Shown in pieces: positions 12,124 to 43,611 of a stretch of DNA of 43,611 nucleotides. The notes under the pieces are model-generated. The model worked only from the letters and a program-made list of their open reading frames with translations, did no database searches and was not told where the DNA came from. Source of the DNA: a virus. The position numbers and the translations under genes were made by a program. The stretch's first letter is position 1. Each line of letters opens with the position of its first letter. The stretch is taken from positions 1-43,611 of the IMG/VR virus record IMGVR_UViG_3300008050_000096. One strand, given 5' to 3'.

Positions 12124-12170
12124 GAGTTTGGCAATATAGTTCCTAATATGAGTTCTATATTGCCAAATTC
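12124..12170. other. 16-bp inverted repeat after late operon
   Basis: GAGTTTGGCAATATAG pairs with CTATATTGCCAAATTC across a 15-nt loop, with one wobble. No proper T-run follows (TTCTTTAT), so it may be a weak terminator or a regulatory hairpin. It occupies part of the 350-bp gap between 12101 and 12448; the rest holds the endonuclease scar, the repeated leader and an early promoter. Confidence 0.5.
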
Positions 12171-12187
12171 TTTATACGATATCCGTA

Positions 12188-12235
12188 TTAATTGGATTTC
12201 AGTATGAATTCTCCTGTTGTTAACCGTTTAGGCAT
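12188..12235 (-). pseudogene. N-terminal scar of homing-endonuclease gene
   Basis: On the minus strand, directly behind a leader nearly identical to that of the intact gene at 19590-20519, a 15-codon reading frame encodes MPKRLTTGEFILKSN. Its first 11 residues match the start of the intact protein (MSRKLTTEEFI), then homology stops at a TAA. This looks like what remains after deletion of an endonuclease gene, although a copied leader with a start fragment is also possible. Confidence 0.7.
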
Positions 12236-12346
12236 AAAAAATCCTCATTGATACACGTAGGTCGCTACAACCATCTCAATGAGGACTTCTTATTTAAATT
12301 GTCTAGGATTTGAAGTAGCGAATTTCGTGTTCCTATAAATATTTAG
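12233..12346 (-). repeat. copy A of duplicated structured leader
   Basis: This 114-bp segment is about 94 percent identical by eye to 20517-20633. Read on the minus strand it starts with a late-promoter-like CTAAATATTTATAGGA. It contains a 10-bp perfect hairpin (12242-12251 with 12276-12285) followed by T6 and ends at the ATG of the gene scar. The hairpin loop holds TCGCTAC (12262-12268), which is complementary to GTAGCGA (12315-12321) upstream in the transcript. Confidence 0.85.
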
Positions 12347-16323: not shown

Positions 16324-16755
16324 CTATCTAGAGGCTTTTGCTAAACTTCCACCGAATAAGAAACTCACAACTTGAATAACTCCGTACTTGATATAATCAG
16401 CTAGGAAGAATCCAGTAGTTGTTATAATTTTGGGATCGGTTTCCCATTTAAACAAGCCAAAGATTACACTTTTACTTTTCCCTGCAATTAACATTGCAGT
16501 CTCCTGCTCTTTAATTCCCATATATAATAGACCTCCAAAGGATACTAATATGATAATTAGTGCGATATATTTTCGGAATACTGGAGAAGATCGTTTAGCC
16601 GCATCATTAGCGTGGTCATTATTCTGAGAATTTTGCCGTAAAGCAAGCTCCATCAATTCTTTTTGATCTTGACGTTTATATGCAGATTGTTTAGCGAAAA
16701 ATGATAATATTCCCGTAACCATTCCAAATAGAATTTCTGTAGGTATTCCAAACAT
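16324..16755 (-). CDS. holin-like membrane protein (three TM)
   Basis: The 143-residue protein has membrane segments near residues 5-20, 61-80 (YIALIIILVSFGGLLYMGI) and 115-137. A charged Gln/Asn-rich loop lies between the first two, and a short basic C-terminus closes it. This layout fits three-TM phage or gene-transfer-agent holins. It is preceded by a late-promoter-like element and converges on the lysozyme gene, which together suggests a lysis cassette. Membrane function is seen; holin activity is inference. Confidence 0.65.
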   Translation of the reverse strand: MFGIPTEILFGMVTGILSFFAKQSAYKRQDQKELMELALRQNSQNNDHANDAAKRSSPVFRKYIALIIILVSFGGLLYMGIKEQETAMLIAGKSKSVIFGLFKWETDPKIITTTGFFLADYIKYGVIQVVSFLFGGSLAKASR

Positions 16756-18368: not shown

Positions 18369-19589
18369 TTAACTCCTTATGCATTCTTCAGGTTTCTTAT
18401 CATAGCGAACACGGATGAACTGTGGAAATTCACAACATCCACTATCGTCCTGCCGACTCTGATATTCGATTTCATTCACAAACGGGAATGTCAGTTCACC
18501 GCCATCAATTTCTTCGGTCAGTTCTTTCAAGCGTTCATGTGACAGTTTACCTGGCCCACATTTCCCGAAACTAACTAATTCCCCATCTACATATTGACTG
18601 ATGAAGAATTTAGCGTACAACCCTGCTTGTTTACCCGCTTTACCTTTTTCAGCACTTGTAACAATGAAATCATCTTCATAGACATACTTCTGTTTCCAAG
18701 CACCGCATTTATCAGCTTTACCGTTCAAGGAGAAGCGGATATTAGACTTTTCACCTTCAACCCGAAGAACAAGACCTTCAATGTCACCATCTTTGTCGCC
18801 TTGGTTTTCTTCGTAGAACTTCTTCCAATCTTCAAGAATTTCAGGAACGTCCAAACCCATTTCAATCATCCACGGGTAGCGTTCAGTCTTGTAACAGGTG
18901 TTACCGATGAACTTATAGTCCATAAACATCATGTCAAACGGAACAACTTCAAAGGTGTTCTCAACCGATAGGGCGTTGTAGCGTTTAACCGCCTTTTCTT
19001 CAGTTTTCTGACGAGTAACTTCACCCGCTTTACGAGGACTGTCTTTACCATCAGCCTGTACGCAACAGAACTCATTAAGCACCAGTGAACCTTTTGCCAT
19101 AGTGTCCAATTGCTCTTTGATCACAGGAATGTTCTTTAGGTGTTGAAGCGGAACCATGCCACGGGAATATACATATTCCTTTTCAGTCTTAATAAGAATG
19201 ATACAGTGACCGTTGCGTTTCAACTGACCAAACAGTGTTGGATCTTTCAGTGCTGAAGCGGGAGCGTCCTTTGCAGGTTTACTTGGGCAAAAACTTTCTG
19301 GAATGTTATCAAGGTCGATTTCTTCAGTCTTAGTTTCAACAACTGCTTCCAAATCTTCAACATAACCGTCCTTTTTCTTTTTAACGATCTTAGCATCCAT
19401 TTCAACGATAGCCTGTTCAGCAGGAGTAGATTCATTGGCTTTGCCAATATTCTTACCTTCACACTCTTTGCGAGTAGACTGTTCCTTAGACCCAATCGTA
19501 CCCCACTTGCTACAGAGAAATTCGCCCTCTGTCCAAAGTTCAATGTATTTGGTTTTTCCAGTTCGTGCTTTTTGATATAATTTAGTCAT
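18369..19589 (-). CDS. ATP-dependent DNA ligase with N-terminal WGR domain
   Basis: The 406-residue protein begins with a WGR-like domain (YIELWTEGEFLCSKWGTIGS, about residues 15-34), followed by an acidic linker. The nucleotidyltransferase core then runs from about 115. Motif I is GQLKRNGHCI, with candidate nucleotide-attachment Lys124 (KxNG instead of KxDG). Later motifs include FEVVPFDMMF, DIEGLVLRVEG (about 259-269) and WKQKY (288-292), and an OB-like C-terminal domain follows (LVSFGKCGPGKLS). It should seal nicks in phage DNA. The WGR fusion is unusual, because that domain is best known from PARPs and some bacterial regulators. Confidence 0.85.
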   Translation of the reverse strand: MTKLYQKARTGKTKYIELWTEGEFLCSKWGTIGSKEQSTRKECEGKNIGKANESTPAEQAIVEMDAKIVKKKKDGYVEDLEAVVETKTEEIDLDNIPESFCPSKPAKDAPASALKDPTLFGQLKRNGHCIILIKTEKEYVYSRGMVPLQHLKNIPVIKEQLDTMAKGSLVLNEFCCVQADGKDSPRKAGEVTRQKTEEKAVKRYNALSVENTFEVVPFDMMFMDYKFIGNTCYKTERYPWMIEMGLDVPEILEDWKKFYEENQGDKDGDIEGLVLRVEGEKSNIRFSLNGKADKCGAWKQKYVYEDDFIVTSAEKGKAGKQAGLYAKFFISQYVDGELVSFGKCGPGKLSHERLKELTEEIDGGELTFPFVNEIEYQSRQDDSGCCEFPQFIRVRYDKKPEECIRS

Positions 19590-20519
19590 TTACTCTCCTT
19601 CTGTTAATAATTTTTCAATAATTTCGTTTATGTTTTCTAAATCTGTATATGGTATTCTACATAGATTAATTGATTTGTCAATACAATATTTGGTTTTAAT
19701 TTTATCTCGATTCTGGGTTAGTTTGAATGCACGTACTCCTCCAAAATGTTCAATAGGTTTGAAGTGTTGTATACCGTCAAATTCAATTGCAATATTATAT
19801 TCTGGGATATAAAAATCGAATGGCAGGGTGTATTTATCTCTACAATCGTCAAATCGTTTTTGTGGTTCAAATCCAACTCCTCTATTTTCGAGTATTGTGC
19901 GAATCAATTTCTCACCATGAGATTCTTTACACATTGGGCATCCATTGCCGTTAGTATGATTATTAGGTTTTTGCCAAAATTCGCCATGTTCTGGGCAAAT
20001 TATGAGGACTTTACTGTGATTGTTTTTATAGTTTACTTTTGAATAATCATATATATTACCGTGTTTTTGTTTAGCTTTAATTATGAAATCATCAGCGGTT
20101 GAAGAAAATATAGTTTGTTGGTATTCTATGTTGCATTTATGGCAACCTGTACCTTGAGTATGATTTGTTGGAGTCTGCCAAAATTCCCCGTGTTTTGGAC
20201 ATATTATACAGACTTTAGTTCTAGCGTTTACATATTTAACTTTAGAATAGTCATATCCATGGTGTTTATTTTTTGATTTTGTAATAAATTCTTCTATTTT
20301 CAGTGATTGTGTTTTAGCTCTATTTTTTCTACCACAGTTTGGACATTCATTTCCACCTAGATGGTTTTTGGGTATTTGCCAAAATTCACCATGCTCTGGA
20401 CATATGATGCAAATTTTAGTATAACTATTATCATATTCTACTTTAGAGTAATCATATTTATCTCCATGTTGTATTATGGCTCTTTCTATAAACTCTTCGG
20501 TTGTTAACTTTCTAGACAT
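19590..20519 (-). CDS. homing-endonuclease-like protein with zinc-ribbon repeats (DUF723/Vsr-like)
   Basis: The start is ATG 20519 (MSRKLTTEEFIERA). The 309-residue protein has three tandem units of about 60 residues. Each runs YDYSKVxYxN...KxxIICPxHGEFWQxPxNHxxGxGCPxC, a treble-clef zinc finger of DUF723 type. The C-terminal nuclease region has LPFDFYIPEYNIAIEFDG followed by IQHF, an NRDKIKTKYC helix and LCRIPYTDLENI. That C-terminus fits EDxHD/Vsr-like homing endonucleases such as I-Bth0305I. It is free-standing, inserted between an M16 peptidase and the ligase, and preceded by a structured leader that may block its RBS. Confidence 0.8.
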   Translation of the reverse strand: MSRKLTTEEFIERAIIQHGDKYDYSKVEYDNSYTKICIICPEHGEFWQIPKNHLGGNECPNCGRKNRAKTQSLKIEEFITKSKNKHHGYDYSKVKYVNARTKVCIICPKHGEFWQTPTNHTQGTGCHKCNIEYQQTIFSSTADDFIIKAKQKHGNIYDYSKVNYKNNHSKVLIICPEHGEFWQKPNNHTNGNGCPMCKESHGEKLIRTILENRGVGFEPQKRFDDCRDKYTLPFDFYIPEYNIAIEFDGIQHFKPIEHFGGVRAFKLTQNRDKIKTKYCIDKSINLCRIPYTDLENINEIIEKLLTEGE

Positions 20520-20633
20520 AAAAAATCCCCATTGATACTCGTAGGTCGCTACAACCATCTCAATGAGGACTTCTTATTTAAATTGTCTAGGATTGTGAAG
20601 TAGCGAATTTCGAGTCATCCTATAACTATTTAG
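20517..20633 (-). repeat. copy B of duplicated structured leader
   Basis: This 117-bp leader of the intact endonuclease is nearly identical to 12233-12346. The minus transcript from CTAAATAGTTATAGGA can fold a 10-bp hairpin that includes the likely RBS (GGGGA) and is followed by T6 just before the ATG. The C-to-T difference in the stem between copies keeps pairing as G-U. Confidence 0.85.
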
Positions 20634-20674: not shown

Positions 20675-21913
20675 TTAAAAAGTTGGACGCATTATACACC
20701 AGTTGCTTTGCATATTAGTTAAAAACTCTTTTGCATATTCATTGACGGCATTGAGGTCTACATTTCGACAGTCTTCATAGTCCTTATTGAAGTCAAAGTC
20801 AACCCCAAAAAGCTCAAAGTTTGCAATTTGCATCGCCATTGATTCTGGAGTTTGCATTGCCCGACAGAATTCGCCCAAAATCGCATTCTTTCCTGCCAAG
20901 AAATCCTGTTCATCAAATCCGTTGGCGATGATGCCGTCTTTAACCTCTTGCACCGCATCCTTGAATTGCTCAACTTTAGAAGCATCAATTCCAGACTTTA
21001 GAATCCCAACTCCAGAACAACCGTTTGTAAGCCAATCGCCAGTTCCGATATTGTAACACAACCCTTGTTTCTCTCTTATTTCACGGAATAACAGAGAATT
21101 CATTCCACCACCATAAAGCTCATGGAACATTTCATGATGAATGTCCTGTGTGGCAATATCTGGAACACGGAAATGCTCACAAATGTATGTCTGCTGAATT
21201 GCACTGCGATCAAACTCTTCTTTCAGATCCCACATTGGAACGATTTCAGGTTCGATCAGCGGATCAGCCGTTGCAACCATTTCATTCCCCTTCAGATGCT
21301 TGTTTACTGCGGATTTAACTTCACTAACAGGCATTGAGCCGATGATCAGCAGAACAGTGTTATCCTGACCATATTGGGTCTTGTAGTAGTGTTCAAGCGT
21401 TTCACGGGACATTTTCTCAAGCGTTCCCTCATCTCCAAGGATTGTTCTGGACGTTTGACTGTTATGGAACCGTTTAGCCATTTCACCGAAGAAATGTGAG
21501 TTGTGGTTGTCCTGATGCATCTTCAATTCTTCTTGGATCACAGACCGTTCAGAATCAATCTCTGACTGTGGAAGTGTTGAATTGAACATCATATCAGACA
21601 ATAAATCCAACGCACCTTCAAAATTGTCCTGCGGTAATCCCGACAAATAATACGAAACTTTATATTGACCAGTGCAAGCGTTCTGGATGCCACCAAGCAT
21701 TGAACCTTCTCTTGCAATATCTTCCCAAGTTCGTGTTTTGGTTCCTTTGAAAAACATATGTTCCAGATAGTGAGCAACTCCGCTATTTTGGTCATTCTCT
21801 CCGTAAGATCCTGCGAGACTGTGAAAGCCTACATATGCCGTGAAGAGATTCGGCACTTGCATATATACCACATCGATTCCGTGTACTTTACTTCTTATTA
21901 CATTATATTTCAT
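20675..21913 (-). CDS. M16-family zinc peptidase
   Basis: The 412-residue protein has the inverted zinc motif HxxEH (H48, E51, H52 in AHYLEHMFFKGT). A third-ligand candidate Glu lies about 76 residues on, in SERSVIQEELKM (E128 or E129). Later GGGMNSLLFREIREKQGLCY carries the conserved R...Y region of the second half. This is the architecture of M16 (insulinase or mitochondrial-processing type) half-enzymes. RBS GGAG lies 10 bp upstream; a CTAAATAA element lies at 21941-21947. It may process a host or virion protein. M16 in a phage is not common. Confidence 0.88.
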   Translation of the reverse strand: MKYNVIRSKVHGIDVVYMQVPNLFTAYVGFHSLAGSYGENDQNSGVAHYLEHMFFKGTKTRTWEDIAREGSMLGGIQNACTGQYKVSYYLSGLPQDNFEGALDLLSDMMFNSTLPQSEIDSERSVIQEELKMHQDNHNSHFFGEMAKRFHNSQTSRTILGDEGTLEKMSRETLEHYYKTQYGQDNTVLLIIGSMPVSEVKSAVNKHLKGNEMVATADPLIEPEIVPMWDLKEEFDRSAIQQTYICEHFRVPDIATQDIHHEMFHELYGGGMNSLLFREIREKQGLCYNIGTGDWLTNGCSGVGILKSGIDASKVEQFKDAVQEVKDGIIANGFDEQDFLAGKNAILGEFCRAMQTPESMAMQIANFELFGVDFDFNKDYEDCRNVDLNAVNEYAKEFLTNMQSNWCIMRPTF

Positions 21914-41587: not shown

Positions 41588-42262
41588 TTAAAACTTAAGT
41601 TTACGACCCTTTTTCCAACCATTGGGGATTGGGTCTGTTTTCTTAATTCTTTTAGATTCTTTTAGTTCTAGGTTATATATCCACATTGTTCCATAATGCG
41701 AATTACCAGATCCCTTTTGACGTTTAGAATTCGCTAATCCGATTTTGTTCTTTGACTCTTCAGTATGTTTCATACCCGTGAAGTGTGATGTTGGAGTATA
41801 TCTTCCTTCTGAAATTGCTAATTGCAACCCCTCCGAAACTCTTTGACTAAAATATTCTTTAAATTCTTTAGTTTCCGACAATTCTTTAATCTTTGCAAAC
41901 CCTCTTTCGTGTCCAAGTTTTTGAGCTTCCTTATAGTTTTTCTGATTATGGATTAGAACACCCAAGTTATTAGCATTTACGTGATCCCATCCACCAGTAC
42001 CACCAAGTTTGATATTATATGTATCTGCTCTTTTGATGAATTCGGAATCAACAATTTTAGCTTCCATATCACTAGCATCTTGCTCATTATCATATACGAA
42101 TAAAATATCTTTAGTGAAATGATCAACTCCATATTTCTCTATCGCCCGTTCAATGAGTAATCCTGAACCCATATAGTTGTCGTTTATATCTTCGGTTTTA
42201 TGTTTACCAATGTAAATTTTGTTGTTGACAGTATTCGTAATTTTGTATATAGTGTATTTCAT
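41588..42262 (-). CDS. GIY-YIG homing endonuclease (free-standing)
   Basis: The 224-residue protein begins MKYTIYKITNTVNNKIYIGK with the GIY-YIG core (TIY and YIG), followed by LLIERAIEKYGVDHF. Its C-terminal DNA-binding part includes HFTGMKHTEESKNKIG, a NUMOD3-type element. It resembles the Seg-type phage endonucleases. It lies tail-to-tail with the interrupted tRNA cluster; the stop is 7 bp from tRNA 3. Its promoter-RBS module is CTAAATAGTTATAGGAG. T4 also has a Seg gene beside its tRNA cluster. Confidence 0.88.
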   Translation of the reverse strand: MKYTIYKITNTVNNKIYIGKHKTEDINDNYMGSGLLIERAIEKYGVDHFTKDILFVYDNEQDASDMEAKIVDSEFIKRADTYNIKLGGTGGWDHVNANNLGVLIHNQKNYKEAQKLGHERGFAKIKELSETKEFKEYFSQRVSEGLQLAISEGRYTPTSHFTGMKHTEESKNKIGLANSKRQKGSGNSHYGTMWIYNLELKESKRIKKTDPIPNGWKKGRKLKF

Positions 42263-42563: not shown

Positions 42564-42797
42564 GTGGTAGAAATCAACGAACGCCAGTACATGATGGATC
42601 TTGGCGATGAGCATATGATCGTCTGGGAGCGACACCCTTCTGTGGTGATGTTGAAATACGTCAGTATAAATAATCAGAGAACTATTATAAGGGAATATAC
42701 TCGCAGTTCATTTGCTATCGGAATACATCCCGTTCGTAGATTTTTCCGCTTGACAGATGAAGAAGTTAAGTGTATGGTATTACCAAGAATTATTTAG
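42564..42797 (+). CDS. tandem small protein, shared-tail array member 1
   Basis: The GTG start follows the previous stop by 1 bp (MVEINERQYMMDLGDEHMIV, 77 residues). The tail FFRLTDEEVKCMVLPRII is nearly identical in members 2-4, while the middle differs. The pattern of a variable body and a constant C-terminus links it to the about 100-residue early family. The end codes for a segment that may serve as promoter and RBS for member 2. Confidence 0.68.
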   Translation: MVEINERQYMMDLGDEHMIVWERHPSVVMLKYVSINNQRTIIREYTRSSFAIGIHPVRRFFRLTDEEVKCMVLPRII

Positions 42798-42805
42798 GAG
42801 GTAAT

Positions 42806-43030
42806 ATGGTTGAAATAACAGAAGATGAATGGATGTACCTTGGTGGACACCGCATCATGTGGCAGAGAATGGGGCAATATGATGCTCTCTATTACTGTAG
42901 AGAAGGTATGGGAATGACTCGTCTGAAATTGACAGTTCCCGTCAAACCTATACTAAGAAGTAAAACTCATCGTTATTTCTCCTTGACAGAACAGGAAGTA
43001 ATTGATATGGTATTACCAAGAATTATTTAG
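42806..43030 (+). CDS. tandem small protein, shared-tail array member 2
   Basis: ATG 42806, with AGGAGG 6 bp upstream (MVEITEDEWMYLGGHRIMWQ, 74 residues). The first 8 residues resemble member 1 (MVEI), suggesting a fairly recent duplication. The tail YFSLTEQEVIDMVLPRII is shared. Function unknown. Confidence 0.7.
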   Translation: MVEITEDEWMYLGGHRIMWQRMGQYDALYYCREGMGMTRLKLTVPVKPILRSKTHRYFSLTEQEVIDMVLPRII

Positions 43031-43038
43031 GAGGTAGT

Positions 43039-43263
43039 ATGAAATTGTATATTAATGCCCGTCTTCCAAAGTCTGGAAACATATTGAAGCGTGGGTTCTT
43101 TTGTGGAACTTGCGAGTTGACATTATACACTATAAAAAACTACACATTGACTAATCCTGTCATCATTAAAGAAACAAATTCTGTAAGTTCCTTCAGAGAT
43201 TCTACGTTTTGGATATTGACAGATGAAGAAGTTCAGCGTATGGTATTACCAAGAATAATTTAA
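43039..43263 (+). CDS. tandem small protein, shared-tail array member 3
   Basis: ATG 43039 after AGGAGG (MKLYINARLPKSGNILKRGF, 74 residues). The body is unrelated by eye to members 1 and 2; the tail WILTDEEVQRMVLPRII is nearly the same. Function unknown. Confidence 0.7.
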   Translation: MKLYINARLPKSGNILKRGFFCGTCELTLYTIKNYTLTNPVIIKETNSVSSFRDSTFWILTDEEVQRMVLPRII

Positions 43264-43271
43264 GGAGGAGC

Positions 43272-43535
43272 ATGAAAGAACTTGATATAGATCGTATATA
43301 TAACCAACAAACCCCTGACAATGTTACGGGAATAGTGGGAATGAGAAACATTCTATCGTGGTCTAGGGGAAGTAATATATTCTCTTGGTTGACATTTCAT
43401 AGCGAGTACGGTGAAGCGTGTGGCGTTGATCTGAAGGTCACAAAGCTTCCATTCATCCATAAGGTAAATAGAAATCGCTATTTTATATTGACAGATGAAG
43501 AAGTTGAGCGTATGGTATTACCAAGAATTATTTAA
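43272..43535 (+). CDS. tandem small protein, shared-tail array member 4
   Basis: ATG 43272 after AAGGAGG (MKELDIDRIYNQQTPDNVTG, 87 residues). The tail YFILTDEEVERMVLPRII matches the others. Function unknown. Confidence 0.7.
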   Translation: MKELDIDRIYNQQTPDNVTGIVGMRNILSWSRGSNIFSWLTFHSEYGEACGVDLKVTKLPFIHKVNRNRYFILTDEEVERMVLPRII

Positions 43536-43544
43536 GGAGGTATT

Positions 43545-43611
43545 ATGAAGAAAATAATTTTTGAAAAGGGTCAACGTGTTACCGTTGAGAATTATCCTAA
43601 AAATGGTTATA
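43545..43611 (+). CDS. small protein, 3' partial
   Basis: ATG 43545 follows AAGGAGG from the fourth gene-end module and reads MKKIIFEKGQRVTVENYPKN before the window ends. It is likely the next member of the array; whether it carries the same tail cannot be seen. Confidence 0.6.
   Translation, partial: MKKIIFEKGQRVTVENYPKNGY

Follow-up and report, generated by a model that had tools for sequence, protein, structure and literature searches.

A predicted terminator-like hairpin buries the SD of a free-standing homing endonuclease gene in a T4-like phage

Regulation by a leader hairpin has been documented for gene e, segB and I-TevI of phage T4 and for mobE of Aeromonas phage Aeh1 (PMC2988022, PMC3014915). 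In I-TevI, segB and mobE, a stable hairpin pairs the SD in front of a homing endonuclease, and the late promoter is placed so as to prevent the hairpin in late transcripts. The T4 late element TATAAATA spans positions -13 to -6, and CTAAATA has been reported as the late promoter of Aeh1 (PMC1524935). The endonuclease gene seg43(25) of Aeromonas phage 25 also has a stable hairpin at its start, for which no release by a late promoter has been described (PMC2988022). The leader described here resembles these anti-RBS hairpins in that a stable hairpin pairs the SD and a homing endonuclease (phrog_559, phrog_9084) lies downstream, but it lacks a late promoter placed to prevent the hairpin, as far as promoter use can be predicted.

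The window, i.e., the whole stretch of DNA analysed, is a virus record of 43,611 nucleotides (43.6 kb) with the gene content of a T4-like phage. For a virion structural protein, matches lie in T4-like phages, those of Synechococcus among them, with about 32% identity; no near match among phage records was found for the 15-25 kb region. Judged by these comparisons, the phage appears distant from all sequences in the collections compared. The endonuclease, whose relatives occur in 1236 phage records, consists of repeated zinc-finger-like units and a nuclease-like domain at the C-terminus; it has 309 aa when counted from the family-consistent start. Family homology begins directly past ATG 20519, which agrees with the start chosen in the initial annotation. 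Automatic ORF calling would instead pick ATG 20558, which is in frame and lies within the hairpin. This upstream ATG had been overlooked; it would prepend MVVATYEYQWGFF to the endonuclease (20558-20520, minus strand). The features of the locus and of its second copy are collected in Table 1.

Table 1. Features of the two leader copies and their surroundings; positions are those of the window
Feature	Position	Strand	Basis or remark
Free-standing homing endonuclease gene	19590-20519	-	matches to phrog_559, phrog_681 and phrog_9084; DUF4379
T6 tract	20520-20525	-	between SD and ATG; terminator score with hairpin
Core hairpin	20526-20569	-	folds, SD opening rank, shuffles
Conserved leader	20520-20611	-	from CGAAATTCGC to the ATG; copy-to-copy comparison
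P2, TTTAAATA, late-type element	20575-20582	-	next to the hairpin base; start predicted at 20569, where the 5' arm begins
TCGCTAC, proposed pseudoknot partner of loop GTAGCGA	20600-20606	-	7-bp complement, near chance
P1, CTAAATAGTTATAGGA	20618-20633	-	late promoter + SD module; CTAAATA 20633-20627; predicted start 20621
M16 peptidase gene	20675-21913	-	one neighbour of the leader-endonuclease unit
DNA-ligase-like gene	18369-19589	-	other neighbour of the leader-endonuclease unit
Copy A of the leader	12235-12346	-	perfect stem TCCTCATTGA/TCAATGAGGA, T6, ATG
Truncated endonuclease remnant	12188-12235	-	MPKRLTTGEFILKSN*, after copy A; read from sequence

On the minus strand, the arm TCCTCATTGA (20569-20560) pairs with TCAATGGGGA (20535-20526), after which come T6 and ATG 20519; the core hairpin also has an apical stem, UUGUAG/CUACGA, and its 3' arm contains the SD, GGGGA. 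All the elements named in the initial annotation are present, namely CTAAATA, both arms, T6, the ATG, TCGCTAC and the loop GTAGCGA. The folding energy of the leader is -36.7 kcal/mol (z = -3.9), a value matched by none of 200 shuffles. Opening the endonuclease SD costs 15.5 kcal/mol, which ranks first among the 70 gene starts in the window (mean 2.4, sd 2.3; next highest 7.0), and among the 182 SD-ATG sites in the window no others rank as high as those of the two leader copies. When the upstream part was dinucleotide-shuffled with the SD-ATG stretch fixed, 0 of 500 shuffles reached the observed SD opening, for either copy. Given this rank and these shuffles, the hairpin is far beyond chance. 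The hairpin buries the sole SD, and the earlier proposal that the only good RBS is held in the stem is strongly supported by the opening energies and the shuffles. No curated RNA family matched above the gathering score in a search of Rfam 15.

Copy A of the leader is similar to the copy before the endonuclease (copy B) over 12203-12346 (90% over 147 nt). The endonuclease after copy A stops after 15 codons, which had been overlooked, and a perfect inverted repeat, TTTGGCAATATAG...CTATATTGCCAAA (12127-12167), lies immediately past this remnant. In copy A, the frame equivalent to that of ATG 20558 stops at a UGA within the SD. Between CGAAATTCGC and the ATG, 2 of the 91 positions that can be aligned are mismatched, and there is one gap (98% identical); in the following 30 coding bases, eight differ (73% identical; Fisher p = 2e-4 versus the leader), and beyond these similarity vanishes. 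Because the leader is better conserved than the gene after it, the comparison suggests that the leader itself is conserved, either for a function at the nucleic-acid level or by recent copying between sites. Part of the identity could come from recent copying or conversion between the copies, not from selection. Two differences fall in the hairpin: an A-to-G change in the 3' arm retains pairing as G-U, as had been noted earlier, and the apical U-A becomes U-U. These two changes are not covariation.

No homologue of the leader was found outside the window in viral and genome contig collections. The loop motif GGTTGTAGCGACCTACG had four matches in viral contigs, all within coding sequence, without a matching hairpin and without a leader. 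A search with the perfect-stem pattern returned matches beside tRNA-like sequence and others without the leader, none of the 26 matches to a 16-mer of the 5' arm was followed by the hairpin, and the loop with the 3' arm had no match in genome contigs. We also considered that the leader might be the 3' end of a phage gene whose product ends in NPRQFK*; this was rejected, as the 21 matches were scattered, nearly all in very short frames, and pointed to no shared gene.

The element TAAATA is enriched upstream of window genes (14 occurrences, 3.7 expected); in most cases, 16-19 nt separate it from the ATG, and the SD lies within this interval. The P1 module recurs before other genes of the window, at 41588-42262 and, with one difference, at 16324-16755. 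P2, overlooked in the initial annotation, is weaker and less typical for the phage than P1. Late starts were predicted from the -13 to -6 rule, by which the RNA begins six bases past the last A of the late element (PMC1524935). In the RNA predicted from P1, the hairpin is intact and SD opening still costs 14.3 kcal/mol; in that from P2, the cost goes down only to about 9 (9.4) kcal/mol. On late-promoter RNA, the controls fall from 13.7 to 4.2 (T4 e), from 9.4 to 4.3 (segB), from 11.0 to 4.1 (I-TevI) and from 14.3 to 4.0 kcal/mol (Aeh1 mobE). Since P1 leaves 14.3 and P2 9.4 kcal/mol while the controls reach about 4, a switch of the I-TevI kind appears to be lacking with P1 and to be only partial with P2, both start sites being predicted. 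It had been argued before that the late start lies upstream of the hairpin, so that I-TevI-type release would not apply; the folds bear this out, the T4 and Aeh1 controls releasing the SD and the P1 RNA not.

Aeh1 mobE shares with this locus a free-standing homing endonuclease, a buried SD and a CTAAATA-type late promoter. However, its endonuclease is of another family and its CTAAATA lies within the hairpin, so that late RNA frees the SD, whereas here CTAAATA lies about 57 nt upstream and gives no release. I-TevI, segB and gene e of T4 also have a stable leader hairpin that buries the SD, but their late promoter is the 5' arm itself and their hairpins are without terminator character. In seg43(25), which has a similarly stable hairpin at the endonuclease start, the SD is outside the stem, and here it is inside. 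Among relatives of the same endonuclease family, CPT_Munch_274 of Salmonella phage Munch likewise has a buried SD (8.2 kcal/mol), but its leader is I-TevI-like, with TATAAATA inside the hairpin and an SD opening that falls from 8.2 to 0.8. In GAP32 and fENko-Kae01, the endonuclease relative is preceded by a U-tract hairpin, a clear terminator, whose base carries a TAAATA element; in contrast to the present leader, this hairpin contains no SD, and the SD is free. RBS burial is absent in most relatives of the endonuclease, and the idea of a family-wide burial was not supported (median SD opening 2.3 over 21 starts, some of them miscalled, versus 2.6 over 95 controls).

We suggest, as a somewhat probable explanation, that a terminator-like anti-RBS hairpin holds endonuclease output low and is perhaps partly relieved by transcripts from the hairpin base. 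The leader would act in cis, its hairpin repressing the free-standing homing endonuclease gene behind it. In full-leader transcripts, including late ones from P1, the SD-bearing 3' arm would be locked in the long stem, and translation would be very low. The hairpin with U6 would probably also end part of transcription just before the start codon, which would make a double lock. Initiation at P2 would be the most plausible partial relief, as RNA from its predicted start, where the 5' arm begins, has a weakened stem. Low and late endonuclease output would then be the purpose for which the leader was selected. According to this model, for which we rely on folding, the two copies and the controls, the leader appears to work like the known anti-RBS hairpins, and what seems new is that the release device is missing and a terminator-like tail is added.

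Another possible, though doubtful, explanation is that the hairpin is mainly an intrinsic terminator or attenuator of upstream transcription, from the peptidase gene or P1, and that the use of the 3' arm as SD is incidental, translational control being a by-product. The hairpin has the make-up of an intrinsic terminator, a U tract coming straight after a GC-bearing stem, and scores d = 10.3 with U6 (d = 3.0 in copy A) by the d'Aubenton-Carafa formula, where d above 0 counts. By the same score, segB has no candidate, and the values for T4 e and I-TevI are far below zero. Within 80 nt of the start, d is above 0 for 3 of 75 window gene starts, and only the endonuclease hairpin overlaps the SD. 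Termination, which the initial annotation had named as one alternative while overlooking that the hairpin with U6 resembles a terminator, thus has real support. The GAP32 and fENko-Kae01 endonucleases, directly behind clear terminators with TAAATA at the base, fit this explanation as well. In addition, L106, a viral contig whose genes include some of phage structural type, carries CCTCATTG...CAATGAGGATTTTTTTATG before a non-endonuclease gene, with d = 25.8 and an SD opening of 12.8; this hairpin (700-740) has the same arms and is followed by T7 directly before the ATG. On the evidence of these arms and values, there appears to be at least one case elsewhere of a terminator that lends its 3' arm to the following gene as SD. 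The likeness of the arms may be convergent, because a GAGGA SD dictates a UCCUC partner. However, a T-rich stretch between SD and ATG is nothing unusual in this phage (AAGGAGATTTTTATG at 1348 is one example), the hairpin scores modestly and that of copy A lower still, and an endonuclease whose transcripts ended just before the sole start codon would scarcely be made.

We regard as equally doubtful a timing switch of the I-TevI type through P2, in which late RNAs would begin within the 5' arm, leaving the SD free, and early and middle read-through RNAs would be repressed. This architecture is known from T4 and Aeh1, P2 does lie at the hairpin base, and a start only 2-3 nt deeper (20567-20566) would cut SD opening to 5.2-3.2 kcal/mol. 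The rule-based start (20569, or the G at 20570), however, retains the whole 10-bp arm with an opening of 9-10, and all four controls drop robustly to about 4, unlike P2.

It is unlikely, in our estimate, that the leader is a mobile regulatory element copied together with differing endonuclease N-termini, whose two-level lock (termination and SD burial) would hold even on late transcripts and be released by a trans-acting factor or controlled read-through, not by promoter position. With regard to the setting, the left flank CTAAATAGTTATAGGA (20633-20618, minus strand) and the right flank GGAGAGTAA-ATG (19600-19587, minus strand; the ligase start) would, if joined, make up a normal late promoter + SD module of the phage, and copy A is likewise preceded by such a module. 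The leader-endonuclease cassette may have been inserted into the promoter/SD of the ligase gene, and the last endonuclease codons (GGA GAG TAA) may serve as the ligase SD. An empty insertion site was sought through relatives of the neighbouring peptidase and ligase, which gave distant matches only; the M16-type peptidase has few and distant phage relatives. Elsewhere in the window, four similar 75-nt repeats (42734-43546; spacing 233-272 nt) precede a row of small genes, and each of them holds an SD and a start region.

A role at the DNA level, with the inverted repeat as an operator or a homing-site remnant bound by the endonuclease, would be quite unlikely. It would agree with the conservation of the leader and has a precedent in I-TevI, which represses its own late promoter (PMC2988022), but the single arm change breaks the DNA symmetry and keeps the RNA pairing as G-U. 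Slightly less credence is given to translational coupling, by which a short upstream frame from ATG 20558 would melt the stem, the stop inside the SD of copy A having been changed in copy B to give an in-frame fusion to the endonuclease. These frames are read directly from the sequence, and the distance from P2 to ATG 20558, 16 nt, is within the 16-19 nt usual for the phage; this ATG, however, is without an SD, and the N-terminal extension is absent from relatives. Finally, the proposed pseudoknot switch is unsupported and highly improbable: the loop-upstream complement between TCGCTAC and GTAGCGA does exist (7 bp, duplex -9.2 kcal/mol) and is kept in both copies, but it is identical in them and so without covariation, 3.4% of upstream stretches, shuffled or genomic, have such a 7-bp loop complement as well, and the pairing would displace the apical stem only, leaving the SD stem untouched.

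Under the explanation that we favour, a terminator-like anti-RBS hairpin keeping endonuclease output low, the locus would be a counter-example from nature to the rule that a late promoter within the hairpin opens the hairpins of phage endonucleases. It raises the question of whether permanent low expression is sufficient for the persistence of a homing endonuclease, or whether a second release mechanism exists. It also indicates that one short hairpin may combine terminator and anti-RBS functions.
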